From Flavobacteriales bacterium (lineage in GTDB: Bacteria > Bacteroidota > Bacteroidia > Flavobacteriales_F > PHOS-HE28), in the NCBI GenBank assembly GCA_016788205.1, contig JAEUTA010000017.1, positions 1 to 64,000 on the forward strand: DNA of 64,000 nt, written 5' to 3'. A program made the position numbers and the translations under genes. The notes beneath the pieces were generated by a model. It was not told the DNA's origin. It did no database searches and saw only the letters and a program-made list of their open reading frames with translations. Position 1 is the stretch's first letter; each line of letters opens with the position of its first letter. Positions 31,346 to 56,797 of the stretch are shown here, one piece after another.

Positions 31346-31837
31346 ATGCATAGGGCGGTAGGATGTTGTTCGAGATGGTGCAGGCTGGCTGGATTCGCCA
31401 TCGTGGCGGGCTTGGGCGCACTTTCGAACGCGGCTCAAGGCCAAGAAAGACCGCTCGTTCTCATCCAGTTCGAAAAGCCCACGACCTCCTCAACGAAAGA
31501 GCTGCTGGCTTTCGTGGAAGAACGCACAGCGTGTGCGAACCTCACGCTGCATGAAGGCTGGGTGGTACGCTGCGAATGTCCGACCGCTATTCACCTGAAC
31601 GAGATCCTCAACGCAGAGGACAAACGGTCGCCGCGTGCCATCGGTGTTACCATCCTCTCTTCTGATGGTACGATGACCATGGAGGGTGATGCACCCTTCC
31701 CGGTCCTGCTCGTAACGGGTGATGATGCGGCCGATGACGAACGCTATACGACGTGGAAGCTGCACTGGATAGCGAACTACCCCGCACGCTATGCGAGCAT
31801 GTTAAGGGACCCGCTCGAAACAACAACAGGACGATGA
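31346..31837 (+). CDS. Small secreted companion protein with ferredoxin-like-looking core and 'TGD..RY..WK..WIA' tail
   Basis: This 163-residue protein has a signal peptide (about 1-32, ending NAAQGQ). Its predicted core has an order of strand, helix, strand and helix (LVLIQFEKP, TKELLAFVEERTA, LTLHEGWVVRCEC, AIHLNEIL), which resembles an HMA/ferredoxin-like fold without a metal-binding C-x-x-C. The C terminus TGDDAADDERYTTWKLHWIA, followed by xxPARYASM, matches the protein at 53255 (TGDAQLDNQRYDAYKAAWIA). It overlaps the downstream cargo gene in an ATGA (31834-31837), so the two are translationally coupled. I do not recognise a named family; the fold is inference from pattern only. Confidence 0.65.
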   Translation: MHRAVGCCSRWCRLAGFAIVAGLGALSNAAQGQERPLVLIQFEKPTTSSTKELLAFVEERTACANLTLHEGWVVRCECPTAIHLNEILNAEDKRSPRAIGVTILSSDGTMTMEGDAPFPVLLVTGDDAADDERYTTWKLHWIANYPARYASMLRDPLETTTGR

Positions 31838-33777
31838 ACGCACAGGGATACCGAAAGCTAGCCTTTGCCTTGCTCGCCGTGTTGGGGTCGGTGCCCGCGG
31901 TTCTCTCTCAATGCACCAATAACAATACGGTCATTGCAGGTGGTGCCATTACTCCTCCGTGTCCGGGGTCCATCATCGTGCCGTGTGTCAACGGCGGTCA
32001 GTACGCATTGGTGAACGTCACCCTTGGCAACATCTATGAGTTCGGCACCTGCAATGCCACGTACGACACCCGGATCACGCTCTACAACAATTCCGGAGGC
32101 GGGAGCATCGGCTACAGCGATGATGCCTGCCAGACGCAATCCATCGTAGTGTGGACGGCGACTTACACGGGGCAGTTGCGCGTGCTGGTGGATCGGTACG
32201 TGAGCATCTTCAATACGTGCGCGCACTCCGGGGGGTGCGCTCCGTTGTCCATTTCGTGTTATTCGCCAGCGCCCGCGGTCTCCAACAACGAGTGTTCCGG
32301 GGCGATCGACCTCTTCGTATTCCCCACCTGTTTTTCGCAGACCTTTTCCAACGTAGGCGCAACGAACTCGAGCACCACTCCGAGCCCTTCATGCAGCTTC
32401 ACGGGCACCGCCCGCGACGTTTGGTTCCGCTTCACCGCTCCTGGAAGTGGGGCCGTGGTCATCCGCACACAAGCTTTCAGCCTGGGCGACCTGGTCATGC
32501 AACTCTACAGCGGGGCATGCGGTTCGCTGGTACGTGTGCAGTGTGATGATGACAGTGGACCAGGCCTTACGTCACTGATCGACAGACGTTGTACGAACCT
32601 GACGCCCGGCGCCGTGTATTACCTGCGCGTATGGGGACAGGGATCGACCACGGGAACCTTCGGAGTGTGCGTGGAAGGGTCGGACGTATTCACCACGCCA
32701 CAGCAGGATTGCAGCGGCGGCTTCACGTTGTGCAGCAGTGGCAGCATCAATAACGCTTCTGACTTCACTGGTTGTTCCGCGGATCTCAATACCACGAACA
32801 TGGGTTGCCTAGGCTCATTGGAACAACAAGGCACGTGGTATTTCTTCTCCCCACAGTCCACGGGCGATATCTCGTTCAATATCGTACCGATGAACGCGCT
32901 CGGGCAGCCGGATGACGTGGACTTCGATTTCGCCGTATGGGGTCCGCTGACGGCCGTGACATGCCCTCCTCCCGCAGCACCGATCAGGTGCTCCTACGCG
33001 CTGCCTCCCAGCGGCGGCCCGTGGGCGACCGGACTGCAAAGTCCTAACACCGATAACTCGGAAGGTTCCACTGGCAATGGCTTCTTGGCCCCCCTCACGA
33101 TAGGTGCTGCCCAAATCGGGCGGATCTACATGTTGTACGTCGACAACTTCAATGCGAATGGACAGGCCTTCAGTCTTTCCTGGGGCCTTGCCGCACCAGG
33201 CCAACTAGACTGTACCCTGCTGCCGATCTCGGTTATCGACCTCAACGCGCGTATGGAGCATTCTTCGGTCGCAGTGGAATGGACCGCTCAACATGAAGCC
33301 CCTGTCTCCCATTTCATCGTGGAGCATTCGGTCGATGGAACGACCTTCAAATCCATTGGAACCATCATGGCGACTTCAGGGGTAGCTGCTACGACCGATT
33401 ATCGTTTCGACCACGTCGACCCTGTTCCCGGACTCAACTATTACCGCTTGACGAGTATAAGCGACAGCGGGTCGGAAGAAAGAACTCGGGTCGTGTCCGT
33501 TCTTTGGATGGACAGCGACGACGTGATCAGACCATACCCGAATCCGGCTGGGGACATGGTGTTCGTCGACTTGAGCTCCTTTGAACCGGGCTCAGCCCAT
33601 ACGTTGCACCTGTTCGACGCTAGTGGCAGAGACCTCAGGACCCATCGATTTGGACCAGAGGGATCCTCCAGCACGGTCCGCATCCCGCTGCTCGGTCTTA
33701 GCGCAGGGTGTTATGTCCTCAGCCTCCTCGATCCGGACGGTCAGCGGCTTGCTTCATGCCGCGTGGTCAAGGAATGA
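31834..33777 (+). CDS. T9SS cargo protein, PPC-like modules (647 residues)
   Basis: This protein starts at MNAQGYRKLAFALLAVLGSVP with signal cleavage after VLSQ. A cysteine-rich N-terminal module (CVNGGQYALVNVTLGNIYEF, near 50) is shared with the protein at 53765. A PPC-like module follows (about 155-290), then the conserved block DCSGGFTLCS...GCLGSLEQQGTWYFFSP...DFAVWGP...YVDNF (about 296-460). Next comes a FN3-like region opening LDCTLLPISVIDL (about 463) and a T9SS sorting domain (PYPNPAGDMVF, VVKE end). The start overlaps the previous stop by ATGA. It is one of four related cargos in this region; function is probably adhesion or matrix binding. Confidence 0.85.
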   Translation: MNAQGYRKLAFALLAVLGSVPAVLSQCTNNNTVIAGGAITPPCPGSIIVPCVNGGQYALVNVTLGNIYEFGTCNATYDTRITLYNNSGGGSIGYSDDACQTQSIVVWTATYTGQLRVLVDRYVSIFNTCAHSGGCAPLSISCYSPAPAVSNNECSGAIDLFVFPTCFSQTFSNVGATNSSTTPSPSCSFTGTARDVWFRFTAPGSGAVVIRTQAFSLGDLVMQLYSGACGSLVRVQCDDDSGPGLTSLIDRRCTNLTPGAVYYLRVWGQGSTTGTFGVCVEGSDVFTTPQQDCSGGFTLCSSGSINNASDFTGCSADLNTTNMGCLGSLEQQGTWYFFSPQSTGDISFNIVPMNALGQPDDVDFDFAVWGPLTAVTCPPPAAPIRCSYALPPSGGPWATGLQSPNTDNSEGSTGNGFLAPLTIGAAQIGRIYMLYVDNFNANGQAFSLSWGLAAPGQLDCTLLPISVIDLNARMEHSSVAVEWTAQHEAPVSHFIVEHSVDGTTFKSIGTIMATSGVAATTDYRFDHVDPVPGLNYYRLTSISDSGSEERTRVVSVLWMDSDDVIRPYPNPAGDMVFVDLSSFEPGSAHTLHLFDASGRDLRTHRFGPEGSSSTVRIPLLGLSAGCYVLSLLDPDGQRLASCRVVKE

Positions 33778-33982
33778 CCCTACAGCTGGTCGGACAACCC
33801 TGCCCTTTCCATTCCGTCCATCATAATGGACATGAACACCGAGCGGTTCATGGTCATCTGGACGAGCACCCCCTTCGTCGAATAAAGGATTCATATATTG
33901 GTAACAATTAGTAAAGACTCGCCTTAAAGGGCACGCTCACTTCTGAACGCCGAGGAACGAGGTACTCAACGAACCATTCGAC

Positions 33983-34375
33983 ATGCTGGTACGCTACCTT
34001 CTGACCATCCTTCTCTTCACACCTTTTGTCCTGTGCGGGCAGACTCTCTCCACGGTATCGACGGTACGCTGTCAGACCGATGTGGAGCCTCTATCCAAGA
34101 GTCTTCGAGCCACCATTACTGAACTGGACCCTACCGCGCAGATCAGTATTTCGGGTCCTATGGTGAAATTAAGGCTCAGTATCGCCCCATGCACGGATCA
34201 AACCATCGAGACTGCTTTCCAGCACGCAGGCTTGGCAGGTTGCCATCGTGTAGCCTCACATCCTCATATCTCCTTGGATGGTAATGATCCTCGGGAGTAT
34301 GATGGACCCCGCACGACCGAAAGCACGATAGACGTGAACGGATCAATTCGTCAAGTGATCATCGTGCAACAATGA
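33983..34375 (+). CDS. Small secreted companion protein, second
   Basis: This 130-residue protein has a signal peptide (MLVRYLLTILLFTPFVLCGQ). Mature sequence VSTVRCQTDVEPLSKSLRATI, TAQISISGPMVKLRLSIAPC and CTDQTIETAFQHAGLAG gives a strand-helix-strand-strand-helix order like an HMA fold with no C-x-x-C. It lacks the TGD...WIA tail of the other two companions and has a polar tail (DGNDPREYDG...) instead. It lies 188 bases before the 1014-residue cargo gene, less tightly coupled than the other pairs. Codon use is more A/T-rich than the cargo genes. The family is not recognised. Confidence 0.6.
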   Translation: MLVRYLLTILLFTPFVLCGQTLSTVSTVRCQTDVEPLSKSLRATITELDPTAQISISGPMVKLRLSIAPCTDQTIETAFQHAGLAGCHRVASHPHISLDGNDPREYDGPRTTESTIDVNGSIRQVIIVQQ

Positions 34376-34563
34376 GAGAGCCATGGATGAGCGAGACATT
34401 CCTTCTTCCAAAGGCCTTCGCTTCCTCGGTCTCCCGGGTCAACCCTGTATACACGATGGCTTGTGCACTCCTTCGCGAACGCTCCTCACCTTGACCGCTC
34501 TTCATAGCTCTTACTCTGACAGATGCTCTCCTCGTCTGTGAAGCCATCTTAAAAGCTTGCATC

Positions 34564-37500
34564 ATGACCAGGATGGAACGGAATTCATCAGCGCGGACCA
34601 AGCGGTATCCTCACATGCAATGGTGGATACTCGCGCTTCTCCTGCTGCCATTCACCGATGTCCTTGCCCAACCGGCGAATGATGACCCTTGCGGGGCGAT
34701 CCCCCTCACCGTGGGAACAAGTTGTTCGTTCTCCAGCCGGACTACCGCGGCCGCATCTGCTACGCCCGGTGTTCCGGCTCCCGGCTGCGCATCGTACAAC
34801 GGTGCTGATGTCTGGTTCACCGCGGTGGTACCTGCCAATGGTCAACTCTTCTTCGACACCAACGTAGGGGTGGTGACCGACGGTGGAATGGCCCTGTATT
34901 CCGCAACCTCGTGTTCGGGCACTTTCACCCTGATAGAATGTGACGACGATGACAGCGCCAACGGCTTGATGCCATCGATCATACGCACCGGGCTTGCGCC
35001 AGGAAGCACCGTCTACATCCGTTTCTGGGAATACGGCGGCGATAATAACGGCACATTCACCATTTGCGCCTACTCCCCTCCTCCGCCTCCACCGGCATGC
35101 GGCACTACCGTTACCGACCCGGGAGGCGCTGGCAACTACGCGAACAACACCACGTTCATCGCCACCTATTGCCCGGCAGTGGCAGGGCAGGTGGTCTCCA
35201 TCAATTTCTCTGCGTTCGCGACCGAAGCAGGATACGATTTCGTGTATATCCATAATGGCCCGTCCATCGGTGCGCCGGTGATCGGCACGTACTCGGGCAC
35301 GACCCTTCCACCGGCCATCACTTCCAATGATGTGGGGGGATGCATCACCTTGAGGTTCACATCGGATGGATCAAGTGTCGCCGCCGGCTGGGTCGCCTCC
35401 ATCACGTGCGGTGCTCCGCCTCCGCCGCCTGCGAATGACAATCCGTGCGGTGCCACTCCGCTGACGGTGAACGCAAGCTGCACGTTCAGCACGAGCACCA
35501 CAGCGAACTCGACCAGTACTTTGGCCGTACCCCCCCCGCCCTGTGCCAACTATGCGGGTAGTGATGTGTGGTTCAGCATTGTGGTCCCGGCATCGGGCAA
35601 CTTGCTGGTGAACTCCAATACCGGCGTCATAACCGATGGTGGTATGGCGCTTTATACGGCTACCGCATGCAACGGCACGTTCACCCTCGTGGACTGCGAC
35701 GACGATGATAGCCCGAACGGCCTTATGCCGCAGATAACCGCAGGTGGTCTCATACCCGGGTCAACGGTGTATGTAAGATTCTGGGAACGCGGTGGCGATA
35801 ATAACGGGACTTTCAGCATCTGTGCTACGATGCCACCTACCCCACCTGCTAACGACAATCCGTGCGGTGCCACTTTACTACCGGTGAATACGACGTGCGT
35901 GAACACGACATCGACTACGGTGAACGCACTGGCCACTACCGGCCCACCAGCGCCTACCTGCGCTAACTATAATGGGAATGATGTCTGGTTCAGGGCGGTG
36001 GTACCTGCTAACGGGAGCATCATCATCGAGACGGCTCCCGGGGTGGTCACTGATGGAGGCATGGCCCTTTACACCGCACCAAGTTGTTCGGGACCCTTCG
36101 TCCAGGAGTTATGCGACGATGACAGTGGAACGGGGCTGATGCCTTCCATCACCGCGAATGGACTAGCTCCAGGCACTACCGTGTACATCCGCTTCTGGGA
36201 ATACGGGAACGACAACAACGGCACATTCTCCATCTGCGTGCGCACCCCGCCTCCCCCACCTTCAGGAGATTGTGTTTACGTGCTTAACCTCTTCGACAGC
36301 TTCGGTGATGGTTGGGGAAGTTCGAATGTCGGTGTTCGGATTAATGGAGGTGCATGGACCTACTACACCGTAGGTGGTTCGAACACGCAGGTACTTCTCG
36401 GTATGATGATCAACGACTTCATCGAGCTCAGCTACAATAACTCGGGGCCCTTCCAAGGAGAGAACAGCTATTCGCTCGGGCTGATGGGGGGCGGCAACTA
36501 CTTCAACTCCGGATCAACACCCGCGCCAGGCGCCTCATTCGGCCAGTTGGTGGATTGCGTACCTCCTCCAGCTGCACCGCAGGACTGCAACGGAGGGTTT
36601 ACCATATGTAGCGGACAGGCCTTCAACAACAGCAGCAGCAACACCGGCAATGTCGTGGACCTCAACAGCGCCAATCGCGGCTGCCTATCTTCTGGAGAAC
36701 GTCAAGGCACTTGGTATTACTTCTCGCCAAGCTCGACGGGCTCCGTTGGCTTCACCATCGCTCCCGTAGTGGCCACGGATTATGACTTTGCCGTGTGGGG
36801 CCCGATGTCCACCGTGACGTGCCCACCGGCTAGCGCTCCTGTAAGATGTTCGTATGCGGCACCCACAGGCAATACAGGGCTTGGCAACGGAGCAGTGGAT
36901 GCTTCTGAAGATGCCGGTGGCGACCGGTGGGTGAGCCTGTTGAACGTGACGGCAGGTCAGATCTACGTATTGTACGTGGACAACTTCTCATCCAATGGGC
37001 AGGCCTTCAATCTCTCCTGGCAGCTTTCGGGCGGAGCATCGTTGGATTGCACATTATTACCTATCGAGATGATAGGTGTTGAAGCCGAAGCCCGCGAGGA
37101 CCATATCCTGGTCACTTGGCGAACCGCAGTCGAGTCAGCCACCGACCACTTCATCGTGGAACGATCGAAAGACGGAATGTACTTTGAACCTATCGGCACT
37201 ACAACGGCAGCCGGACTTTCCTCGAGTACGATCCACTACTCCTTTAAGGACGAGAACCCTTTCCAAGGCGATAACTATTACCGTATCGTAATGGTCGATG
37301 TGGACGGGAACACCACTTTGTCGCCGATCGTCAACGCGCACATGATGAGCATGGGCCATGGTTTGGTGGTTTCTCCGAACCCGGTCAGCAGCATGTTGTC
37401 CATCTCTTCGGATCAACTCTTCGGATCGATATCGGAGATCCTGATCCTGGACGCTGCCGGTCGTACGGTACGCACCCTGAACATGGACCTGAAGGTTCCG

Positions 37501-37608
37501 GCGACGGTCACCGTCGACGTCTCGGACCTTGCTCGTGGACCCTACCGATTGGTCGGACGAAGCGGTGATCACTCCATTGTGGCTTTCACTGCGTTCATAA
37601 AGGAATGA
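34564..37608 (+). CDS. T9SS cargo protein with three PPC-like modules and a CUB domain (1014 residues)
   Basis: A basic n-region leads to MQWWILALLLLPFTDVLAQ as signal peptide; ATG 34615 is the alternative start but would lose the positive charges. PPC-like modules (ANDDPCGAIPLTVG, ANDNPCGATPLTVN, ANDNPCGATLLPVN) lie near 37, 292 and 428, and a CUB domain (DPGGAGNYANNTTFIATYC...AGYDFVYIHNGPS) near 182-285. A DSFGDGW module (about 570) is followed by the DCNGGFTICSG...QGTWYYFSP...DYDFAVWGP block (about 675-830). FN3-like LDCTLLPIEMIGV and a sorting domain (SPNPVSSML...LDAAGRT) end it. The domain combination suggests a large extracellular binding protein. It is preceded by a small companion gene. 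Confidence 0.88.
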   Translation: MTRMERNSSARTKRYPHMQWWILALLLLPFTDVLAQPANDDPCGAIPLTVGTSCSFSSRTTAAASATPGVPAPGCASYNGADVWFTAVVPANGQLFFDTNVGVVTDGGMALYSATSCSGTFTLIECDDDDSANGLMPSIIRTGLAPGSTVYIRFWEYGGDNNGTFTICAYSPPPPPPACGTTVTDPGGAGNYANNTTFIATYCPAVAGQVVSINFSAFATEAGYDFVYIHNGPSIGAPVIGTYSGTTLPPAITSNDVGGCITLRFTSDGSSVAAGWVASITCGAPPPPPANDNPCGATPLTVNASCTFSTSTTANSTSTLAVPPPPCANYAGSDVWFSIVVPASGNLLVNSNTGVITDGGMALYTATACNGTFTLVDCDDDDSPNGLMPQITAGGLIPGSTVYVRFWERGGDNNGTFSICATMPPTPPANDNPCGATLLPVNTTCVNTTSTTVNALATTGPPAPTCANYNGNDVWFRAVVPANGSIIIETAPGVVTDGGMALYTAPSCSGPFVQELCDDDSGTGLMPSITANGLAPGTTVYIRFWEYGNDNNGTFSICVRTPPPPPSGDCVYVLNLFDSFGDGWGSSNVGVRINGGAWTYYTVGGSNTQVLLGMMINDFIELSYNNSGPFQGENSYSLGLMGGGNYFNSGSTPAPGASFGQLVDCVPPPAAPQDCNGGFTICSGQAFNNSSSNTGNVVDLNSANRGCLSSGERQGTWYYFSPSSTGSVGFTIAPVVATDYDFAVWGPMSTVTCPPASAPVRCSYAAPTGNTGLGNGAVDASEDAGGDRWVSLLNVTAGQIYVLYVDNFSSNGQAFNLSWQLSGGASLDCTLLPIEMIGVEAEAREDHILVTWRTAVESATDHFIVERSKDGMYFEPIGTTTAAGLSSSTIHYSFKDENPFQGDNYYRIVMVDVDGNTTLSPIVNAHMMSMGHGLVVSPNPVSSMLSISSDQLFGSISEILILDAAGRTVRTLNMDLKVPATVTVDVSDLARGPYRLVGRSGDHSIVAFTAFIKE

Positions 37609-38797: not shown

Positions 38798-38833
38798 TTC
38801 GCAATTGAGCGGTGAGCTCGGCTACTCAGCCTA

Positions 38834-41800
38834 TCAAGGCTGGATCACCAGGCGCTCCGTGTAGGTCTTATCACCAGCAGTGATATTGACCATGTACATA
38901 CCACCAGCAAGGTCGCCGTTCAGGTCGACAGCAGTCTGCAAGAAACCATCCTGCACAGCGATGGTACGAGCCATCACGCGCTTTCCGGTCATATCGAAGA
39001 CGTCCATGCTCACGGTGTTCACATCACCCTCCACTTTGGTCAGGCTCAAGAAGAGCTGGTCGCCGCGGTTCGGGTTCGGGTACATGGTGAATTCGCCATT
39101 ACCCTCAGCGTTCATGCTGCTAGCACCACCGTTGGCACTTGCAGGACAGAACGTACTGGTGGTGACGTTCACCTTGCACACCTTACCCCAGGTAACGATG
39201 GTCTGCGGAGCAGCGCAGGTGGGAGCAGTTCCTGCCACGCACCACGTCGCACCACCATCAAGGCTCACGCGTACATCAACGTCGTACTGCGTGTTGCACT
39301 TCAGCCTGTCACCAGTGGTCCAGTTCAGGTAGATCGTCGGGCTCGTTTGGATCGGGCGCACGATGCAGCTACCTGCAGCAGGATACTCACCAGGGATACG
39401 GAAACGGAACTGATAGCGCACGTTCGCGCTGGCAACGGTTGGAACCGGCTGGGGCGGAGTGGCCACCAACTTGTTCGCTGTGCTGTTGGCACCACCGAAC
39501 ACCTTGCTAACGCCGCAGCTCAGATCGATACCACTTCCTGGGTTGTCCTGAAGCTTCACCAATGGGCAAGCGGCGCGCACTGGGTCGATCTTGAACAAGC
39601 AGGCAGGACCGAACGGCAGGTTCACGTTCGCTACGCGACCGCGTACACGCACGTTCAACAGCACGCTCGCAGGCAGGTGCGGTGTGGTCACCGAGTTCAC
39701 CCACGCATTCACGCGGAAGTGGCAGGCACGCAGCGCGCCTGTTCCCGTTCCATCGCTCGTGGCGTGGCTGCGGAAACGACGGAAGCTGTAGCTACCATTC
39801 GGGTCGAAGAACCAGAATTCGTAACCGCTCGTAGCGTTCGTAACGCCATATTGACCGGAAACGGTCGTGTTCTCCGTGGCAACGATGAACCGGTCATTCA
39901 CCCAGTCGAGCTTGTCGCAGCTGGTGTAGATCGGACGATCGGTACCCACCGGCACACAGAAAGTACCTCCATTGGCGATGGCGCTCAGGCTGCCATTGAA
40001 CACGCCATTGAAGTTGTACTGGTTGTCGATGATCTTGAGGTTGCTTCCTTGCGTACGGAGGGTGTAACCACCGATAGGCCAGGTCGTACCTCCAACCATT
40101 CCGTCTCCACCGCTATCCAGGATGCGGAGGCGGTAGCAACCGTCGGGCAGGCACAAGCCTTGGGTTCCGATGGAGTTGGCAGGGAAAGCGTCCGTGCCGT
40201 TCAGCACAGTTGCCGTTCCAGATTCATTGACGACTTCCCACGTGATCTCGTTCGGGTTGGCAGCATTCTGGAACTCCAGCGTCAGACCATTACCCGTGCA
40301 AGCACCAGAGGTGGCACCGCAAGTGGTGGTCAGCGTGAAGTCACCAGTGGTGGTCGCACCCCAAGCCGTTACGTAGATGTAGTAAGTGGTACCTGCAACG
40401 GAGTTCCAGGTGGCCACGCTACGCGTTCCCGAAGAGGGGCAAGCAGCACCTGCGTCATCGTTACCCGCTACGCAGGTGAACGTACCGCAAGAACCACTGA
40501 ACACACCCACTTGTGAGTCGAACGTCGATCCGCAGAGGCTGGCCTTCATCTGGCCGCCCCAACCGATCACCCTGTACCAAACACCAGGAGCCGCATTGTC
40601 AACGTAAGGATCGTTGATCGCTGCGTCGGTGCATGTACCCGTTGGACGACCCGTGTTCGTGGCGCCCACCGTGGAGCCGGTCACAACGGAGTTGCAATCA
40701 ACCAGGATAGCGTTCGCGCAGAGGTCGTTCGCGGGCGGCGAGGTAACACAAACGTTGAACGTCGTGTTCTGGCCCACAGTTGCCGTGTTGGTGTACACAC
40801 GCACATAGTACGTGTTACCAGCCACAAGACCGGAAACCGCCGTGCTCGTTGTACCGCAACCGATGTTCGTCAACGTACCGCAAGCGCCACTGAAGACGTT
40901 GAAGTTCATTGAAGTAACGCTACCAGCAACGCTGTTCAAAGCGACCGTGTGCGTAGGACCAGTGGCGACGAAGGAGAACCAAACGTCGTCATCCGCAGTA
41001 CCGGCGCATGGCGTAACCGCCTGTCCCGATGCCGTTGCACCGAAGACGGACCCGAAGGTCTGGCTGGTGCAAACCTGGCCAGCGTTCACTGTCAGGCTAA
41101 CAGCACCTGCGCAGTTGTCGTTCGCAGGAGGACCGACAGGAGGCGTGGTCACGCAGATGTTGAAGTTGGTGGATACAGCGGTCGTTCCGTTGCTGTAAAC
41201 ACGCACATAGTACGTATCACCCACCACCAACGTGTTCGGGGTGGTGTAACTATCCACCGTACCGCAGGCAACGCTCGTCAGTGCACCACAGGCGCCGCTG
41301 AAGAGTTGCATACGCATGGTGGTAGCCGGAGTGACACTGCTCAGCGTGATGATCTGCTGCGTGGAACCGGCCACGAAGCTGTACCATACGTCATCCTCTA
41401 CGCCACCGGCGCAAGGAGCCACAGGCACACCGCTGTCCGTCGCGCTCTGCAACGTTCCAGCTGTCTGCACAGCGCAGGTCAGACCGGTGTTCACCACCAG
41501 GCTTGCGGCGCCAGCACAGTTGTCGTTGGCAGGAGGAGGAGGCGGAGCTCCGATGCAGATGCTGAACGTGGTCGTCTGCGGGGCAGCGGTCGTGTACGTG
41601 TAGACACGCACGTAGATCATCTCGCCCACCGTCAGACCCGTAAGGTCGATGGAGTTCGGATCGCTGCACGCGAGGTCCACCAAAGAGCTGCAATCAGCTC
41701 CGCGATAGATCTTCATGTACATGTCCGTTACGCTACCAGCGACGTTCAGGAGGGAAACACGATGCGTCGCATGCGTAGCCGTGAAGCGGTACCACACGTC

Positions 41801-44800
41801 ATCATCTGGGCCACCGAAGCAGGAGCCCAACGCATTACCCGAAGGCGTTGCGTAAGCGACCGTACCAGCGGTAACCGTGCCGCAGAGGTAGTTCGGGTTC
41901 ACCGTCAACACGGTAGCGTTCGTGCATGCGTCGTTGATAGGTGCCGGAGGCGGCGTACCGATGCAGATGCTGAACGCTGAGGTCTGTCCTACGGTGGAGG
42001 TCCAGGTGTAGACACGCACGTAGTACGTATCGCCCACGGTCAGACCGTTGACCAGACTGCTGTTCGGATCGCTGCAGAGCAGGTTCACCAAGGAACCGCA
42101 TGTACCGCTGTAAACAGCATGGTACAGGTCGGTGGTGCTTCCCGTTACGTTGTTCAGCGAGATCGTGTGTGATGTGCTCGTGGCCACGAACTGGTACCAC
42201 ACATCATCATCAGCCGTGCCGAAGCAAGGTGTGACCGCATCGACAGAAGCCGTTGCGCTCTGGATGGAACCAGCCGTTTGCACGGTGCAGGTAAGGCCGC
42301 TGTTCACGGTCAATACCGTCGCGCTCAAGCACTCATCGTTCGCAGGCGAAGTGCGGAAGTTGATCGGACCGAAGGCCGAGCTCGTTCCTGACACGCCGCA
42401 ATCAGCACGCACATAAGCGCTGTAAGCCGTTCCTGCGAAGAGATCGGTAAGGGTCGTCTCCGGAGTTCCGCTCACAGGTACGGTAGTACCGGTACCGAGC
42501 GTGAAGCCTTGAACGCCGTATTCGATCACCCACGCCGTCTCGGTGCAACCGACCGCCCAATCCAGGTCCACGGTGCTGGCGGTGGTATTCGAGGCCACCA
42601 GACCAGAAGCGCTAGGACAAGGAGGAGGAGGTGCCACCGTTACGAGGTAGTCTTCCACTTCACCGAAGGAGTTGTCACCGCAAGCGGTAACGTCGATACC
42701 GTTCGTTGCGAACATGGCACGCACGCGCAGGCGATGCTGACCAACGGGAGGGGAGCAACCCAGTACGATCGGGAACGTGGCGCTAGAGCCAAGAACGTTC
42801 TCCACACCGCTACCGGCTACCGTTCCGTTCGAGTAACCGATACGCTCGGTCAAGTTGTCGAACTGGCCGTCATCGTTGTAGTCGATCCAAGCCGCATAAC
42901 CTTCGCTCCACTCACCGGCGTAAACCGTGCAGCTGTAGGAGGTACCTGCGTTCAACGTGGTCGTCAGGGACAGGTTGCCCGTGTAATCGGAATAACCAGG
43001 ACCCTCGCCACCGGCAACGCTGGTGTTACCCGGAACAGGATCGCTCGGGCAACCGGTGCCGGAGTTGTTATCCAAGGTGTTCAGCGTTACACGTGCGATA
43101 ACGTCACCATCAGCACAGCCGTACGTGGTGACAGGCAGGCAGGGGCAGTTCGCCAACGGAGCCAATGTCAGGGAGATCGGCGTGCTCGTTCCCGTGGAAG
43201 CGCTCGCGGTGCAAGTCACTTGGGCACGGAACATGGTCGGCACGGTGATGCTCGTCGTGAACGTGGCAGCGTTGGTACCCACAGGGGCCCATATGCCACC
43301 TCCATCGGTGGACGATTCCCACTGGTAGCTTACACCAGCACCGCTGATCGTGTTCTGCAGGCTCAGCGTGAAGCTGCGGCCCGAGCACACGGAACTACCG
43401 GCACTGCTCAGCGTGTTACCAGGGTTCGGTGTACCCGCGCAAGCAGGGATGATCTGGTAGGTCAACGTGAAGGAACCTTCACCGGCGCTGTAACCATCCT
43501 GCACCCACCATACACGCTGGGTGGAACCCGTGGTGTTGGTCCATGTCGCGGTCTGATCGTCCGCATCGTCCCAGCATGTGATCACGATATCGCCAGGGCA
43601 GGTCGCGCCATAGCTCATCATCACTTGGGAATCATAATCAGCGCTGGCATGTGCAATGTTCAATTGAGCACCGGCAGGAACATCGATGTAGTACACCATG
43701 TCCGCAGCCACGTTAGCGCTCGTGCTACCGCAGATCAGCGAGTAGTCAGCGTTCAAGCCGGCGGTCGCCGTGCTACCGCTCACAGGGCTGGTCTGCGCAC
43801 CCAGGTTGATGGCATTGCCGCAATAGTCACCGGGCAGGGCTGCACCGGCGGAGGACATGCACACCGTGAAGTTACCAGCACCAGCCACCGTAGTGAACAA
43901 ACGCAGGTAGTAAATGCCGGGAGGCAGGTTCCAGTTCACGGGCAGGGCGGTCATATCGGCTACGCAAGCGCCGTAAGGCGTCAGGCAATCCGTATAGATC
44001 TCACCACCAACGACCGTAGCGGAGCCATCGGTCACGGTGATGACAGGCATTTGGAAGCCCGTGGTGTTCACGGTGTACCAAACGTCCTGTACCGCACCCG
44101 TTGCACAGGTGGGCTGTGCGCCACTCTGATCGGCACCCAAGGTGGTACCGGTCACCGCGTTCGCTGGGCAGTTCGCGGTCAGCTCTACGTTGAGCGTGGT
44201 CGCGTTGGCGCAAGCGTCGTTCGCAGGTGGGCAAGCGCTGTAGCCCACGGTGATGTTATCCGCGATCTGCACGTTGCACTGCGATTGTCCACCATGCAAC
44301 AGTTGCACATCGATCAGCGTGCCCAAGGGGTACGATCCGATGTTCAACCAATCCAGGAAGTCGTTCGCATCCAGACCGGTCACCGTCTCATCCAGTACGT
44401 TGTTCACGTAGATATTGTAGCCGACCGTGGTGGCGGGCAGTGCGGTGGTGGCATCGATGCCGAAGTCCTCCACGAAGAGGAACACACTGAACGTAGCCGG
44501 ATCAGCGGTGCAGTTCACCGTTGGCTGACCCACTTCGTTCTCGTCGATGGACACATAGCCGGTAGGCTCCACGCATCCACCGCAGCGGACCTGGAATTCC
44601 CAACCCGCCGTGAGGCCCGAGCCTCCATCAGCGCAGCTGTTGGAACCATCGGAAAGGATGCTGACGGAGAACGTGTTACCAGAGCTCGTGATCACACCAC
44701 CGGAGGTGAGCGATCCCGTAAGGCTCGCCGGGGTGGCCGGCGTGCTGCCCGGAGCACCGTTCCAGAAGCGAACGTTGTCGTTGCTCTCCATGCTTCCGCT

Positions 44801-47509
44801 CAGGAACTTGAACGCCACCGTACCCAGCGGGTCGGGGTTCGTGAAAGTCCAGGTGCGGGTATCGTTGTTGGTGTAGCAATGCTCCAGTACGATCGCGGGT
44901 GCACCGCAATCCAGATCGATCGGACAAGCACTGTGGTAATTGCCGATGTGCGTGCTGCAGAAACCATTGTTCACCGTTACGTCAACAACATCGATGTCCG
45001 CGAAAGGCCCGATCGATGTTCCAACACCGGTCAGAGGAGCCGTTTGCACAGCTCCGCCGTTCACCGTGTATGAAACGGTCCCGCTCGATAAGCTCGAGGC
45101 GGTGAACTCCAACGTGAACGTGTTGCCCGCGCAGTTGTCGTTCACCTGGATCGTCGCCGTGGCCGTAGCGCACACAGCGATGGTGTAATCTTCAACGGCG
45201 ATGTAGCTCTCCGAAAGGCAAGGGTTGGTGGGGGCGTTGAAGTCCGCACCGTAGATGCGCATCCGGTAGTTGCCTGCCGCTTGTCCAGGAGGCACCGTGA
45301 TGCTCGCGCTCTGTACGCTGGGGATCGCATTGGACGAAGTGAGGCCGGTGAACATCTGTTCGCCGCTTTCGAAGACCACATCATTGTCCCAATCGACCCA
45401 GATCGTGGTTCCGTAAACGAAGCCGGTCTCATACGTGATGGAAACAGGGACCACTTGGCCTGCGGCTACGTAACCGATGCTCGAAGTGTAATCCGCATAA
45501 CCGCCGGTCTCGTTGTTGGGGCCGGTGGAGTTGTTCACGTTGCTGAACGTCACGTTGGTGATGCCACCGGGATCCAGCGTTGCGGTGTTCGGCACGCAGT
45601 ATCCGGTGTAAACAGAGCTACCCGAGGTCCATGCGCTGAAACCTTCAGCTGCACAATCGCTGCGCAGGTAGATGGTATACGTGGTGTTCGCGCTGAGGGT
45701 ATTCACCGTCAGCGTTCCACCGCTGGTGGTACCGCTCGTGGCAAGACCCGTGGCACCGCTGCCAGCTGCTCCGCTCGTACGCACTTCGTATTGGGCGAGG
45801 CTGCTGTTAACGGGCAACGTGTAGGTCATGCTGAAGCCGTTGAGGGCCGGTGCCGGTGTTCCTACAGTTGGCAGGAAGCACTGCGGCGTCGGAGCAACGC
45901 TCAGATCGTCGATATGGAAATCGTAATCTGCGGCGTCGTCAACAGGTCCGTCCGCTGCGTAGATCGCTAGCACAACGGTCTGCCCTGCGTAAGAGCTCAG
46001 TGGTACGACCACTTCTGTCAGCGCACTGGTGATGCCCTGAAGGTTGGCAGCGTTTATGGTGAGCAGGTCCGTGAAGGATACACCGCAGTTCGTGGAAATA
46101 CGAACGACTACGCGGTCATCGCTGGCGGCCATGCCACCACTCGCATCAGGACCGGCAGCGAAGAATTCGGTGATAGCTGCCTTGAAGGTCAGGCGGTCGT
46201 TCGCGCCTAGAGTCACTTTCGGCATCACGATCCACTCGTTCCGTGTAGCAAGGTACAGGTTGATGACGGCGGTCGTGTTCGATGCGAACGTTGCTGTGCG
46301 ACTCGTCCACGCAGAACCCGCCGTTGTTGGGAGGGTGCCGGTGAACTCATCGAAACCCGGATGCGTGGCGGCCAGGTTGGTTCCGCTGAAGCCCGTGAAG
46401 TTCGCAGTCTGTGGAACCGCATACAATGCAGTCGTTGAAGACGTGCTGTTCGCCGTGTTGTTCGTTGCGGAGAAATCGCCCGTCATCGTCACCGTTGATG
46501 CATAGGTGTATGTACCTGCAGCGGAACGGTCCAATGAAGGTGTGAGGGGAACCAGAACGAAACCGCCCACGGCCAGCGTGCCGGTGTTCACAGAACCCGT
46601 CAAGGTGGTGGTAGCAGCACCTGTTACGGCCACAGAGACCGATACAGGCTGTACGGAAAGATCGATGGGCAGGGTACCAGAGTTGTTCACCCGGGCCACC
46701 ATGGCATCAGAGGCGGTAGGGCAACCAGCAACGGAGCCCGACACCGTGGAAGCCGCTACATCCGTGATCGCCGGAGGCGTCCAGGTGTAGGTAAGGCCGC
46801 TCGGAGGCAGAACCGTTGCGGACCAGGTCACCGTGTTACCGGCAGCCGTGCCCGCAGTGGTTGCGGCCCAGCTGGTCGTGGTCGTACGGTTGTTGAATTC
46901 CGTTGTACCCGTGCCGCCGCGCATACCCACTTGCACCGTGTAAGCATTAGCTGCTACGGCACCAGAGTATTTCACCTCGACCACGTTGGTGGTCTCGTAC
47001 AGGCGGATCTGAACGGAGACGGCATTGGTAGCCGCGCTCCAGTTCACCCAGTACAAGGGGTACTCGATCACGCACACGCGGTTGGGGGCTGTACCCTCCA
47101 ACACGGTGAACACACCACTGCCCGAACCTCCGTCACGCGCAGCGAATGCGATGGCGTTGGTGTTGGACGTCGTGGAGATCGGTGTGGTACCCGAGGTAGG
47201 GTTGGAACTCCCTAAACGGATATTCCCGTTGGAGTTAGCCACGAACTGCGTGAAACTAGTCCCATTGAACAGGAACGAGAAACCGATGTTCGTCGCGGGC
47301 GAGTTACCCGTATCCGTGTTCGGCGCAAGGATCTGCGTACCGCCCGTGATAGGGGTATATGTACCCGTCGAACTTGAGAACACATACGAAGCCACAGGCT
47401 GGGCGAATAAGCTTGTACAGCTTAACGCCAAACCCGTGAGCAAGAGCAATGCCTTACGCCAACGCGGTATTCGCCGCGTTCGCGAAGGGCTTGTGTTACA
47501 ATTACTCAT
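38834..47509 (-). CDS. Giant T9SS cargo/adhesin with PPC-like, GEVED and FN3 modules (2891 residues)
   Basis: This is the largest gene here. A signal peptide ends near FAQ (RKALLLLTGLALSCTSLFAQ); a conserved beta-rich N-terminal domain reaches to about 250. FN3-like and GEVED modules follow: GYADYTSSIGYVAAGQVVPV with VEDYTIAV near 670-790, and GYSDYTGNLSLTTTLNAGT with GEVEDYLV near 1480-1620. Four close tandem PPC repeats of about 130 residues start NDECLSATVLTVN, NDACTNATVLTVN, NDNCAGAASLVVN and NDNCAGAVSLTVN (about 1720-2250). A conserved C-terminal region (FRVNAWV...YQFRFRIPGEYPA, about 2560-2780) precedes the sorting domain (MYPNPNRGDQLF, ERLVIQP). The protein is probably a filamentous adhesin. 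It is transcribed alone, opposite to its neighbours. Confidence 0.9.
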   Translation of the reverse strand: MSNCNTSPSRTRRIPRWRKALLLLTGLALSCTSLFAQPVASYVFSSSTGTYTPITGGTQILAPNTDTGNSPATNIGFSFLFNGTSFTQFVANSNGNIRLGSSNPTSGTTPISTTSNTNAIAFAARDGGSGSGVFTVLEGTAPNRVCVIEYPLYWVNWSAATNAVSVQIRLYETTNVVEVKYSGAVAANAYTVQVGMRGGTGTTEFNNRTTTTSWAATTAGTAAGNTVTWSATVLPPSGLTYTWTPPAITDVAASTVSGSVAGCPTASDAMVARVNNSGTLPIDLSVQPVSVSVAVTGAATTTLTGSVNTGTLAVGGFVLVPLTPSLDRSAAGTYTYASTVTMTGDFSATNNTANSTSSTTALYAVPQTANFTGFSGTNLAATHPGFDEFTGTLPTTAGSAWTSRTATFASNTTAVINLYLATRNEWIVMPKVTLGANDRLTFKAAITEFFAAGPDASGGMAASDDRVVVRISTNCGVSFTDLLTINAANLQGITSALTEVVVPLSSYAGQTVVLAIYAADGPVDDAADYDFHIDDLSVAPTPQCFLPTVGTPAPALNGFSMTYTLPVNSSLAQYEVRTSGAAGSGATGLATSGTTSGGTLTVNTLSANTTYTIYLRSDCAAEGFSAWTSGSSVYTGYCVPNTATLDPGGITNVTFSNVNNSTGPNNETGGYADYTSSIGYVAAGQVVPVSITYETGFVYGTTIWVDWDNDVVFESGEQMFTGLTSSNAIPSVQSASITVPPGQAAGNYRMRIYGADFNAPTNPCLSESYIAVEDYTIAVCATATATIQVNDNCAGNTFTLEFTASSLSSGTVSYTVNGGAVQTAPLTGVGTSIGPFADIDVVDVTVNNGFCSTHIGNYHSACPIDLDCGAPAIVLEHCYTNNDTRTWTFTNPDPLGTVAFKFLSGSMESNDNVRFWNGAPGSTPATPASLTGSLTSGGVITSSGNTFSVSILSDGSNSCADGGSGLTAGWEFQVRCGGCVEPTGYVSIDENEVGQPTVNCTADPATFSVFLFVEDFGIDATTALPATTVGYNIYVNNVLDETVTGLDANDFLDWLNIGSYPLGTLIDVQLLHGGQSQCNVQIADNITVGYSACPPANDACANATTLNVELTANCPANAVTGTTLGADQSGAQPTCATGAVQDVWYTVNTTGFQMPVITVTDGSATVVGGEIYTDCLTPYGACVADMTALPVNWNLPPGIYYLRLFTTVAGAGNFTVCMSSAGAALPGDYCGNAINLGAQTSPVSGSTATAGLNADYSLICGSTSANVAADMVYYIDVPAGAQLNIAHASADYDSQVMMSYGATCPGDIVITCWDDADDQTATWTNTTGSTQRVWWVQDGYSAGEGSFTLTYQIIPACAGTPNPGNTLSSAGSSVCSGRSFTLSLQNTISGAGVSYQWESSTDGGGIWAPVGTNAATFTTSITVPTMFRAQVTCTASASTGTSTPISLTLAPLANCPCLPVTTYGCADGDVIARVTLNTLDNNSGTGCPSDPVPGNTSVAGGEGPGYSDYTGNLSLTTTLNAGTSYSCTVYAGEWSEGYAAWIDYNDDGQFDNLTERIGYSNGTVAGSGVENVLGSSATFPIVLGCSPPVGQHRLRVRAMFATNGIDVTACGDNSFGEVEDYLVTVAPPPPCPSASGLVASNTTASTVDLDWAVGCTETAWVIEYGVQGFTLGTGTTVPVSGTPETTLTDLFAGTAYSAYVRADCGVSGTSSAFGPINFRTSPANDECLSATVLTVNSGLTCTVQTAGSIQSATASVDAVTPCFGTADDDVWYQFVATSTSHTISLNNVTGSTTDLYHAVYSGTCGSLVNLLCSDPNSSLVNGLTVGDTYYVRVYTWTSTVGQTSAFSICIGTPPPAPINDACTNATVLTVNPNYLCGTVTAGTVAYATPSGNALGSCFGGPDDDVWYRFTATHATHRVSLLNVAGSVTDMYMKIYRGADCSSLVDLACSDPNSIDLTGLTVGEMIYVRVYTYTTAAPQTTTFSICIGAPPPPPANDNCAGAASLVVNTGLTCAVQTAGTLQSATDSGVPVAPCAGGVEDDVWYSFVAGSTQQIITLSSVTPATTMRMQLFSGACGALTSVACGTVDSYTTPNTLVVGDTYYVRVYSNGTTAVSTNFNICVTTPPVGPPANDNCAGAVSLTVNAGQVCTSQTFGSVFGATASGQAVTPCAGTADDDVWFSFVATGPTHTVALNSVAGSVTSMNFNVFSGACGTLTNIGCGTTSTAVSGLVAGNTYYVRVYTNTATVGQNTTFNVCVTSPPANDLCANAILVDCNSVVTGSTVGATNTGRPTGTCTDAAINDPYVDNAAPGVWYRVIGWGGQMKASLCGSTFDSQVGVFSGSCGTFTCVAGNDDAGAACPSSGTRSVATWNSVAGTTYYIYVTAWGATTTGDFTLTTTCGATSGACTGNGLTLEFQNAANPNEITWEVVNESGTATVLNGTDAFPANSIGTQGLCLPDGCYRLRILDSGGDGMVGGTTWPIGGYTLRTQGSNLKIIDNQYNFNGVFNGSLSAIANGGTFCVPVGTDRPIYTSCDKLDWVNDRFIVATENTTVSGQYGVTNATSGYEFWFFDPNGSYSFRRFRSHATSDGTGTGALRACHFRVNAWVNSVTTPHLPASVLLNVRVRGRVANVNLPFGPACLFKIDPVRAACPLVKLQDNPGSGIDLSCGVSKVFGGANSTANKLVATPPQPVPTVASANVRYQFRFRIPGEYPAAGSCIVRPIQTSPTIYLNWTTGDRLKCNTQYDVDVRVSLDGGATWCVAGTAPTCAAPQTIVTWGKVCKVNVTTSTFCPASANGGASSMNAEGNGEFTMYPNPNRGDQLFLSLTKVEGDVNTVSMDVFDMTGKRVMARTIAVQDGFLQTAVDLNGDLAGGMYMVNITAGDKTYTERLVIQP

Positions 47510-53101: not shown

Positions 53102-53119
53102 TGCTCCATCGCTCTTAAC

Positions 53120-53152
53120 GGAAGCGGCCATCCCAAAAGGGTGGCCGCTTCC
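53120..53152 (+). terminator. Hairpin terminator after the 1608-residue gene
   Basis: GGAAGCGGCCATCCC pairs with GGGTGGCCGCTTCC around AAAA, with one bulged T. The stem is long but there is no U-tract after it. It lies 19 bases behind the stop codon. Confidence 0.6.
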
Positions 53153-53242
53153 GCATTCAGTGCCTCCTCCAAGGCAGGGATGTTCACCTCGACCTGTTGA
53201 GACTACATCAAGGGTTGAGCGGTGGCCGGAACAACAGGCCGA

Positions 53243-53250
53243 TAGTTTCG
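53243..53250 (+). promoter_or_regulatory. Putative -7 element of the third companion pair
   Basis: TAGTTTCG fits TAnnTTTG at all but one defined position. It is only 4 bases from the first ATG (53255), so translation may begin at a later ATG (53258 or 53276). A 7-base inverted repeat (CCTGTTG 53193, CAACAGG 53232) lies just upstream. Confidence 0.4.
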
Positions 53251-53254
53251 TGCC

Positions 53255-53761
53255 ATGATGCAGTCTGCCCTCCGTATGCTACAGCGGGTCTCCATGTTGT
53301 GCATTACCGGCATCAGCGTGCTTGCGTGCCATGGGCAGCAAGTGCATCATTACCGCATGGCGGTGAACGGTATGAGCACCACGCTGCAGGAGAAACGGAT
53401 CACTTCCCTGTTATTCCAGTCAGATGCGCTCTCAGAAGTACACGTAGACCGCCTTGCCGGGCTGGTGGAATGGAAATCCGCACTGCGTTGGGACCGGTTC
53501 AGTGCCGAAACGCTGTTGCACGACCTTCAAATGACCATCCTGAACTTCGAAGAGGTCGGGGTGACGCAGCAGCCCTCGGTGGCCGAAGCGCCTGAACGGC
53601 GGATGCAGGACATGCCCCGCTTCATTGATACCGGTGATGCGCAACTGGACAACCAGCGCTACGATGCCTACAAGGCCGCCTGGATCGCGGCTCATCCAGA
53701 GGAATACGAACAACTCACAGCACCTGCCGGAACCTCCCTCCAGCCGGGATCGATCGACTAG
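53255..53761 (+). CDS. Small secreted companion protein, third
   Basis: This protein has 168 residues from ATG 53255; starts at 53258 or 53276 (MLQRVSMLCITGIS) are also possible. It has a signal peptide ending ACHGQ. The core YRMAVNGM, LQEKRITSLLFQSD, LAGLVEWKSALRW and SAETLLHDLQMTI shows strand-helix-strand-helix order like the first companion. The C terminus (PRFIDTGDAQLDNQRYDAYK followed by AAWIAAHPEEYEQL) matches the first companion: TGD, then D, RY, K, WIA, P and Y at the same spacing. The cargo gene starts 3 bases behind its stop. Conservation between two distant pairs argues for a real functional unit. Confidence 0.7.
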   Translation: MMQSALRMLQRVSMLCITGISVLACHGQQVHHYRMAVNGMSTTLQEKRITSLLFQSDALSEVHVDRLAGLVEWKSALRWDRFSAETLLHDLQMTILNFEEVGVTQQPSVAEAPERRMQDMPRFIDTGDAQLDNQRYDAYKAAWIAAHPEEYEQLTAPAGTSLQPGSID

Positions 53762-53764
53762 TGC

Positions 53765-56700
53765 ATGCCTGAGACCCCGCTCTTCCACAAGCTGCTAACA
53801 GCAGCCGTTCTCGCCATGTCATTGTGCATGGGTGATGTGCTGGCTCAATGCCCGAACGATAACAGTGTAACAGGGAGCGCCATCGCGCTGGCTTGCCCGG
53901 GTAGTGCGTCCGGGGGGTGCGTGCAAGGCGGTCAGTACGCGCTGGTGAACGTGACCAGTGGCAATATCTACACCTTCAGTACCTGCGATGCATCATGGAA
54001 CACCATGATCACGCTTTACAACGGCGGCGCTGCATCAAGCCTCACCTTCAACGACGATGCCTGCACTACGACCCGCTCGGCCGTGCAATGGACGGCGACG
54101 TATACCGGCCAGGTACGGGTACTTGTGGACAGGAGTAACTGCAATACGAACGGTACCTGCGCCCCGCTTTGGATCACCTGTTCGTTGAACGATGACCGTT
54201 GTTCAGCCACTCCGCTCACGGTCGGCACCAGTTGCACGAACAGTACCGGCACCAATGCCGGAGCCACGGCTACCAGTGGCGTTGGTGCTCCGTCGTGCAG
54301 CAATTATGCAGGCGGCGACGTTTGGTTCAGGTTCACTGCTCCGGCATCAGGTCAGGTGACCATCACTTCCAGCACGGTCTCAGGAAGTTCGCTTACCGAC
54401 GGGGGTATGGCCGTTTATAGCGCGTCCGCTTGCGGCAGCACGTTCACAGAGGTGGGCTGCAACGATGACACGCCCACCAGTTACATGCCCGCTCTCAGCC
54501 TTTCAGGACTTACATCGGGAGTGACCTACTACATCCGTTTTTGGGAGTACGGGAACAATTCGTTCGGCCAGTTCAACATCTGCGTGACCACACCGGCCGC
54601 GCCCGCGAATGACAATCCCTGCACGGCAACGACCTTGACCGTCGGTTCAAGTTGCACGAACACGACCAGCACGACCTCCGGCTCCACCAATACCACAGGG
54701 GTAAGTACCCCCACCTGTGGCAACTACCTGGGCAATGACGTCTGGTTCCGCGTGGTGGCTCCGGCTTCCGGGACCGTTGTGATCTCCACCAGCACGGTGA
54801 CCGGTAGTTCACTTACGAACGCGGCCATGGCGCTCTATTCGGCATCCGCATGCGGCGCTACGATGACGGAACTCTCGTGTAACGATAACAGCGTCTCGAG
54901 CAACATGCCCGAGTTGGTCGCAACAGGCCTTACCTCAGGAGTATCTTATTACGTGCGTGTCTGGGCCAATGGCAACACCGCGTTCGGCCAATTCAACCTA
55001 TGTGCGGTGGAACCGCCCGCCAACGATGAGCCTTGCGGGGCCATCGCTTTGACCGTGGGTTCCAGTTGCAGTATGGCCAGCCGTACCAACATGGGCGCGA
55101 CCTACAGCAGTGCGGCGGCGTTGGCCGGCTGCGGCTCGCTCAACGCTGCCTCACACGACGTTTGGTATCGCTTCACTGCACCCAGTTCCGGCATCGCCAT
55201 CATCGAGAGCACATCCGGCACCCTCACGGACGGGTCCATGGCCCTTTATTCCAGTACATCCTGTACCGCAAGCAACCTCACATTGATCCAATGCAGCGCG
55301 GACGAGGGGATGGGTACGATGCCCTTTCTGCGTTTCGCAGATCTCGTCCCGGGCGCCACATACTACCTGCGCTACTGGGGTTCGGGGAGCGCTGAAGGCA
55401 CATTCAACCTGTGCGTTTGGAGCCCTACCATGCCTTCGGGCTCTTGCGTGTACTTCTTGGAATTGTGGGATTCCGGGGAGAACGGCTGGGGCACGAGCGA
55501 GGTGCAAACACAGGTGAACAGTTCGCCAGTGGTGAGCACTACCGTGGCCGCTTCTGATTTCTATGAGTGCAGGCTGATCGGTGTGAACAATGGGGACATG
55601 TTCATGGTCAGCTACGTTAACTCCGGGGCGAACCAAGCGCAGAACAGGTATCAGATCCGGCAGGTGCCAGGTGGCGATGGCGTACTCACGCAAGGGCCCT
55701 CGCCCGCTTCGGGCATTTCGTTGTTGGAGACCATCGATTGCGTTCCTCCAGATGCGCCCAAAGAAGATTGCGAGGGCAGCATGAGCATCTGTAACGGACA
55801 AACCTTCAACGACAACCCCTCCGGAACCGGGTTCGACGTGGATCTGCGCTACGGCACCTTCGGGTGCTTGGCTTCAGCGGAAAGGCAGGGAACATGGTAC
55901 AAGTTCTCGCCTTCTGCGAGCGGCACGATCGGGCTCACCATATCCCCATCCACATCCACCAACGATTATGATTTCGCCGTGTGGGGGCCCGAGAGTGGGA
56001 TCTTCTGTCCACCCTACAAACGTCCCAAACGCTGCTCCTATTCAGGCACGACCGGGGATACCGGTATGCGAACGAGCTCTGCCGACACGACGGAGGATGA
56101 CACCGGGGATAAGTGGGTGGCTGCACTGAACGCGGTGGCCGGCGAACGTTACCTTTTATACATCAGCAATTATTCGCAAAGCGGTCTTGCGTTCAGCCTG
56201 TCATGGCAACTCACCAACGGAGCTGCGTTGGACTGTTCGCTGCTTCCCGTGGATTTCATTGAACTGCAAGCCGAGCTAAGTGGAGATGTCGTGGACGTAA
56301 CGTGGTCCACCGCATCGGAAACGAATGCGAGCCATTACGTCGTTGAGCGATCGGCCGATGCCGAGAACTACGTGCCCATCGGCACGGTGCAAGCCGTGGG
56401 TAACAGTACGCAACTTTCATCCTATTCGTACCTGGACGAGCATCCGGCCGAAGGGCTGAACTACTACCGTGTACGGCAGATGGACATGGATGGCTCAGCG
56501 CAAGAAAGCCCTGCTGATTATGCCATCTACCGGAAAGGAACATCGGACATGGTGGTCTTCCCGAACCCGGCCGGGAACATACTCTGGGCATCGTTTGAAA
56601 TGCCCGAGGAAGACGCCGTGATATGGCGTGTGCTGGACGCACAGGGGCGTCTGGTAGAGCAAGACCTCTACCAAGGCACGAAAGGGAACATGCTCATTGA

Positions 56701-56797
56701 CATCCCGCTAGAGCGGCTGGCCGTGGGTAGCTATACACTGCTGATCAACGACTCGCGCGGCCTCATGAACAGGTCCGCGCATTTCCTGAAGCACTGA
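53765..56797 (+). CDS. T9SS cargo protein with PPC-like modules (1010 residues)
   Basis: The signal peptide ends near VLAQ. The first module (CVQGGQYALVNVTSGNIYTF) is the same as in the 647-residue protein at 31834. PPC-like modules begin NDDRCSATPLTVG, ANDNPCTATTLTVG and ANDEPCGAIALTVG (about 142, 280 and 419). A GSCVYFLELWDSGENGW module is near 557. The DCEGSMSICNGQTF...RQGTWYKFSP...DYDFAVWGP block covers about 663-815. FN3-like LDCSLLPVDFIELQ and a sorting domain (FPNPAGNILW...VLDAQGR, HFLKH) end it. It resembles the 1014-residue cargo without a CUB domain. Confidence 0.88.
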   Translation: MPETPLFHKLLTAAVLAMSLCMGDVLAQCPNDNSVTGSAIALACPGSASGGCVQGGQYALVNVTSGNIYTFSTCDASWNTMITLYNGGAASSLTFNDDACTTTRSAVQWTATYTGQVRVLVDRSNCNTNGTCAPLWITCSLNDDRCSATPLTVGTSCTNSTGTNAGATATSGVGAPSCSNYAGGDVWFRFTAPASGQVTITSSTVSGSSLTDGGMAVYSASACGSTFTEVGCNDDTPTSYMPALSLSGLTSGVTYYIRFWEYGNNSFGQFNICVTTPAAPANDNPCTATTLTVGSSCTNTTSTTSGSTNTTGVSTPTCGNYLGNDVWFRVVAPASGTVVISTSTVTGSSLTNAAMALYSASACGATMTELSCNDNSVSSNMPELVATGLTSGVSYYVRVWANGNTAFGQFNLCAVEPPANDEPCGAIALTVGSSCSMASRTNMGATYSSAAALAGCGSLNAASHDVWYRFTAPSSGIAIIESTSGTLTDGSMALYSSTSCTASNLTLIQCSADEGMGTMPFLRFADLVPGATYYLRYWGSGSAEGTFNLCVWSPTMPSGSCVYFLELWDSGENGWGTSEVQTQVNSSPVVSTTVAASDFYECRLIGVNNGDMFMVSYVNSGANQAQNRYQIRQVPGGDGVLTQGPSPASGISLLETIDCVPPDAPKEDCEGSMSICNGQTFNDNPSGTGFDVDLRYGTFGCLASAERQGTWYKFSPSASGTIGLTISPSTSTNDYDFAVWGPESGIFCPPYKRPKRCSYSGTTGDTGMRTSSADTTEDDTGDKWVAALNAVAGERYLLYISNYSQSGLAFSLSWQLTNGAALDCSLLPVDFIELQAELSGDVVDVTWSTASETNASHYVVERSADAENYVPIGTVQAVGNSTQLSSYSYLDEHPAEGLNYYRVRQMDMDGSAQESPADYAIYRKGTSDMVVFPNPAGNILWASFEMPEEDAVIWRVLDAQGRLVEQDLYQGTKGNMLIDIPLERLAVGSYTLLINDSRGLMNRSAHFLKH

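Follow-up and report, generated by a model that had tools for sequence, protein, structure and literature searches.

One family of short exported proteins stands before very large surface-type proteins in many Bacteroidia, which suggests that its members are dedicated partners of T9SS cargo. The window, i.e. the entire 64,000-nucleotide stretch of DNA that was analysed, contains three such companions, all on the forward strand, and an ORF check bore out every coordinate of the three pairs of small gene and large cargo that a preliminary description had recorded (163, 130 and 168 aa for the small members). Companion 1 (P0001, 163 aa, positions 31346..31837, PFPVLLVTGDDAADDERYTTWKLHWIANYPARY) has a signal peptide, an HMA-like domain assigned by homology through its membership in the HMM family, and a C-terminal W/P..Y motif, and its gene overlaps in an ATGA junction that of cargo 1 (P0002, 647 aa, 31834..33777), in which a signal peptide and an N-terminal QC...GGQYALVNV domain are accompanied by a GBD_T9SS repeat and a type A T9SS sorting domain. 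Companion 2 (P0003, 130 aa, 33983..34375), with a signal peptide and an HMA-like domain (AlphaFold2, HMM) and without the C-terminal motif, precedes by 188 bp cargo 2 (P0004, 1014 aa, 34564..37608), which has GBD_T9SS repeats, a CUB domain recognized by Pfam, and a type A sorting domain. Companion 3 (P0005, 168 aa, 53255..53761), a signal-peptide protein with an HMA-like domain (AlphaFold2, Foldseek) and the C-terminal W/P..Y motif, is separated by 3 bp from cargo 3 (P0006, 1010 aa, 53765..56797), which carries an N-terminal QC domain, GBD_T9SS repeats and a type A sorting domain; its motif (53609..53716, DMPRFIDTGDAQLDNQRYDAYKAAWIAAHPEEYEQL) was matched in the motif search and is predicted by AlphaFold2 to form a pair of helices. 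The tight spacing initially ascribed to all three cassettes thus applies to pairs 1 and 3 and does not extend to pair 2. Similarly, the cargos had been described as PPC-rich T9SS proteins, and of this description the T9SS part stands: each combines a signal peptide with the C-terminal domain (TIGR04183/PF18962) by which type A substrates are recognized, and a type A sorting domain ends all three, in two of them scoring just under Pfam's own cut-off. Their repeats, however, are assigned by Pfam to GBD_T9SS_assoc (PF23759), with PPC giving weaker matches.

P0001 and P0003 escaped a simple gene caller based on codon usage, which also clipped P0005, and the reality of these genes was therefore judged from their conservation. 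The same array contains a related GBD/CUB T9SS cargo of 1608 aa on the forward strand (P0008, 48275..53101), which has no companion, and a T9SS protein of 2891 residues, likewise without a companion and with seven or more GBD/PPC-like repeats, is encoded on the reverse strand between two of the companion cassettes (38834-47509). Variable arrays of one to four cassettes occupy one syntenic site, seen at positions 28973-57415 of the window and at loci L073-L092, which constitutes a hotspot of large-surface-protein expansion. The 192-residue protein encoded at 56837-57415 has no Pfam or NCBIfam match, and several relatives have a short ORF of similar size separating the array from MeaB.

Direct similarity among P0001, P0003 and P0005 is barely visible, and they are bridged by their relatives from the genus. 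Each small protein was searched against 45 related genomes of the genus, which are mostly drafts, and iterated HMMs were then seeded separately; those started from each single seed converged on the same ~50 proteins, placing all three in one family. Most of its genus members have lengths of 104-220 aa, the majority type (~140-220 aa) having the C-terminal motif and the other type (~104-158 aa) lacking it. This motif had been noticed in two of the three window companions, and P0001 and P0005 indeed have it, while P0003 does not. The AlphaFold2 model of P0005 (mean pLDDT 88.8) contains a confident βαββαβ domain (pLDDT blocks of about 96) and a C-terminal helix pair at the motif, and that of P0003 has the same order of elements, E-H-E-E-H-E, so that the common strand-helix-strand order first suggested for the small proteins is recovered: P0005 and P0003 share a predicted HMA-like ferredoxin fold, and P0001 is placed with them by HMM homology. 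In Foldseek, the P0005 fold groups with Atx1-type HMA domains (best TM-score for the target about 0.8); the matches for the two models include Atx1 and ZntA and are weaker for P0003. None of the three window companions contains a CxxC, and any CxxC was found in only 3 of 75 family members, which makes a metal role unlikely; the function of a metal chaperone was rejected on these grounds. The Pfam HMA model (PF00403) did not match P0001, P0003 or P0005 at E<=1 and matched 2 of 48 family members weakly, with a best E of 0.0047. Pfam and NCBIfam gave no convincing match for the companions or the motif, and neither detected a sorting domain on the companions themselves.

For the genus, the surrounding DNA was retrieved, ORFs were called, and models were built for the sorting domain and the GBD repeat. 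In the 45 genomes, all 68 family members with enough flanking DNA have a large secreted cargo ORF directly downstream on the same strand, while among 141 other small genes from these loci only one precedes such an ORF. This pairing is not due to chance: relatedness among genomes and paralogues inflates the formal Fisher P, yet the arrangement recurs at independent genomic sites and in further families of the class. The tail is in view for 61 of the 68 downstream cargos, the rest being mostly cut by a contig end; of 63 genus cargos, curated tail models recognize 56 (TIGR04183) and 57 (PF18962). Gaps between companion and cargo have a median of 3 bp, with 57 of 66 at or below 30 bp and 15 at exactly -4, i.e. 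of the ATGA type. The genus copies are not independent, because most of them share one syntenic location, where an array of one to four cassettes follows tandem DUF1573 genes and an aminotransferase gene and is often bordered by MeaB at its other end. A second site (L134-L136) has weaker relatives, which precede a T9SS-tailed gene lacking GBD repeats. The window's genome, a 4-Mb draft with a large secretome, has 150 matches to the T9SS type A sorting domain, so that companions serve only a few cargos; those with GBD repeats and no companion include P0008, P0009 and a cluster on contig C9. Since most T9SS cargo and several GBD cargos have no companion, export in general does not depend on one. 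The cluster on contig C9 (G000:C9:206001-226000, locus L267) is the second one in this genome and comprises three GBD_T9SS cargos, with no companion or motif nearby.

Beyond the genus, 396 genomes of the class were searched with the whole family and with the 36-residue motif alone. The motif was found in 37 of them, including 27 outside the genus that belong to 11 other families of the class. All of the matches are on short open frames of 114-322 aa coding for exported proteins, and nearly all of these ORFs stand immediately before a secreted ORF that is giant or truncated by the contig end, mostly at a distance of 5-68 bp; the tails of 14 cargos were readable, 11 of them being of type A and one of type B. 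The preliminary description had left it to homologues of the small proteins to decide the matter, and they do lie upstream of T9SS cargo and not away from it, without exception in the genus and in nearly all matches across the class. The exceptions are L246 (9541-9882) and probably also L168 (5606-5926), where the motif protein is immediately downstream of a giant T9SS gene, and L219 and L234, where the nearest large ORF is about 450-560 bp off. The named records among the matches are metagenome-assembled Bacteroidia, Flavobacteriales and Bacteroidales, with one labelled Chryseobacterium gleum; the window's genus includes the record Flavobacteriales HKST-UBA112. The motif proteins from across the class are not covered by any Pfam or NCBIfam model. 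Conserved motif residues are P, T-G, D, Y, K, W, P and Y, and some companions carry the motif twice. An HMA-like N-terminus could be recognized by eye in the companions at L160, L210, L217, L235 and L237, and in others the N-terminal halves are variable, low-complexity or disordered-looking. The constant element is the short helical motif, which resembles a docking element more than it does an enzyme. A comparison of its presence with that of the T9SS is uninformative, because SprA is found in 384 of the 396 sampled genomes.

Many of the cargos found across the class open, right past the signal peptide, with one Cys-containing domain (QC.NN...GGEY..VNV..GN.Y.FSTC). The HMM for this N-domain drifted into general GBD/PPC repeats after several rounds, and a strict early-round version was therefore used. 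When the search was reversed, 23 of the 30 best N-domain matches had a small exported protein directly upstream, an upper estimate because the search seeds came from paired cargos; 19 of the 23 upstream proteins carry the motif, two are HMA-type without it, and two have a different, related C-terminal motif. A second C-terminal motif, EFxxMPxEKxxxIxxxPxxY, which resembles the first, occurs on small exported proteins (L278, L285, L302-L306, L161, L162, L222) that are mostly upstream of T9SS-type cargos, and some proteins carry both motifs. Its model, applied to 222 genomes, yielded five proteins beyond the seeds, four of them directly upstream of an N-domain cargo and one before another exported protein. 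Within the genus, the presence of the motif in the companion and of the N-domain in the cargo was not significantly associated (Fisher P = 0.17), and a strict rule connecting the two was dropped for this reason.

Distances between companions correlate with those between their own cargos, and none of 500 within-genome shuffles reached the observed correlation. Companion divergence follows the C-terminal region of the cargo (r 0.45) more than its N-terminal 130 aa, for which the correlation is weakest (r 0.23). The cassette is inherited as a unit; the correlation alone does not imply binding.

The original suggestion that companion and cargo act together has come through the checks of genomic position and fold, and the binding, location and role of the companion we infer. 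The reading that we favour, at about even confidence, is that the companion is a dedicated periplasmic partner, i.e. an escort or chaperone, of large repeat-rich type A T9SS cargo. Encoded by overlapping or very close genes, companion and cargo are probably translated together. Sec would carry the companion into the periplasm, where it should be soluble and begin with a glutamine, since the signal peptides end in ..AQ, in keeping with the Q-rule for exported proteins (PMC10653852). There it could bind its own cargo via the HMA-like domain and/or the C-terminal helical motif; the motif is the likelier docking element because it is more widespread and is also found on companions with no recognizable HMA domain, and the HMA-like fold, with no CxxC, may serve as a protein-binding scaffold and not as a metal site. 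The companion may then hold the cargo export-competent or escort it until its passage through SprA/PorV and, having no sorting domain of its own, would either stay in the periplasm or exit with the cargo. In its favour, the T9SS has been described as transporting its substrates in the folded state (PMC9251779), and cargo-specific partners have a precedent among type B substrates (PMC12618676). Points against it are the many cargos that have no companion, the variable or disordered-looking N-terminal halves of companions across the class, the closer agreement of companion divergence with the C-terminal region of the cargo than with its N-terminus, and the non-significant association of motif and N-domain in the genus. 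In the literature we found no cargo-specific partner for type A substrates and no description of the companions, although most subscription papers and preprints were outside the coverage, so that novelty is unproven. Type A substrates are thought to share one carrier, PorV. We tentatively extend the proposal, at somewhat under even confidence, to all companions marked by the W/P..Y helix or the related EFxxMPxEKxxxIxxxPxxY motif, which may be cargo-specific escorts for T9SS surface proteins that are giant, of type A and in many cases equipped with the N-terminal Cys domain, and may thus form an undescribed class-wide two-gene module, the type A counterpart of SprF/PorP shuttles. With a conserved companion for the largest type A cargos, it becomes testable how proteins of 600 to >3,000 residues stay export-competent in the periplasm; the motif provides a sequence signature by which any Bacteroidota genome can be searched for such pairs, and an uncharacterized family gains a likely partner.

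The main rival to a periplasmic escort is co-secretion, in which the companion would be a non-covalent subunit of the surface protein, binding the cargo in the periplasm, hitchhiking with it through SprA and staying in the adhesin complex. The same gene pairing and co-divergence fit this reading, folded proteins are described as passing through the T9SS (PMC9251779), and companions with no sorting domain would need a carrier to leave the cell; a literature search for piggyback T9SS substrates, however, found none, and we consider co-secretion possible but rather unlikely. We see even less reason to expect an adaptor, in which the conserved motif would dock on the translocon or an accessory protein instead of the cargo and so deliver a particular cargo, even though the motif is conserved across the class while cargos vary, behaves as an autonomous short element that is at times present in two copies, and has a parallel in the cargo-specific targeting of type B substrates via SprF/PorP (PMC12618676). 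With SprA in 384 of 396 genomes and the motif in only 37, the receptor would have to be a general component that is retained although few proteins use it, and PorV is already used by type A cargo.

An immunity-like partner had also been considered at the outset, i.e. a protein or inhibitor shielding the cell from the activity of the cargo in the manner of potempins, for which there is the precedent of a small exported protein beside a T9SS cargo gene. The window cargos disfavour it: their C-terminus is a sorting domain, and in the four that were scanned Pfam and NCBIfam detect GBD/PPC/CUB repeats together with that domain, and no protease, toxin or enzyme domain; moreover, related cargos exist without a companion. 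Such a role is therefore very improbable, and we would say the same of the view that there is no joint function at all, an ancestral pair having been duplicated and its linkage merely inherited. The latter would account for the concentration of most genus copies in the single array between the DUF1573 and aminotransferase genes and, often, MeaB, but the pairing is kept at 9-38% identity, recurs at other sites and in further families of the class, and holds where cargo architectures differ and the N-termini of companions are unlike one another, and none of the 68 members with room lay away from T9SS genes.

Comparison of the proposed escorts with known systems shows the closest parallels in PorP/SprF-like shuttles (PMC12618676, PMC9143113), which are likewise dedicated, genetically linked partners of one large T9SS substrate. 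SprF and PorP, however, are outer-membrane carriers, usually encoded downstream, for type B sorting domains (PMC12618676, PMC9143113), whereas companions are small and exported, have an α/β fold predicted to be soluble, and come from genes in front of cargos that are mostly of type A. Type B partners are not the rule either in the genus (56 of 63 cargos match TIGR04183) or in the class sample (11 of 14 type A, one type B), and the genus companions, mostly 104-220 aa, upstream and predicted to be soluble, do not look like downstream outer-membrane carriers. HMA or Atx1-like metallochaperones have the predicted βαββαβ fold in common with the companions, which differ from them in being exported, in mostly lacking CxxC, and in having no Pfam HMA match among the window proteins. 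Potempins inhibit adjacent KLIKK proteases of Tannerella forsythia and, like companions, are small exported proteins encoded beside a T9SS-secreted protein; the window cargos, in contrast, have no protease domain, and the fold of their companions is predicted to be ferredoxin-like. Finally, SkpA of the T9SS extended translocon (PMC10994853) resembles the companions as a periplasmic chaperone-related factor working with T9SS substrates, but it is a Skp homologue and a general component of the translocon (PMC10994853), whereas companions are linked to particular cargos and belong to another family.
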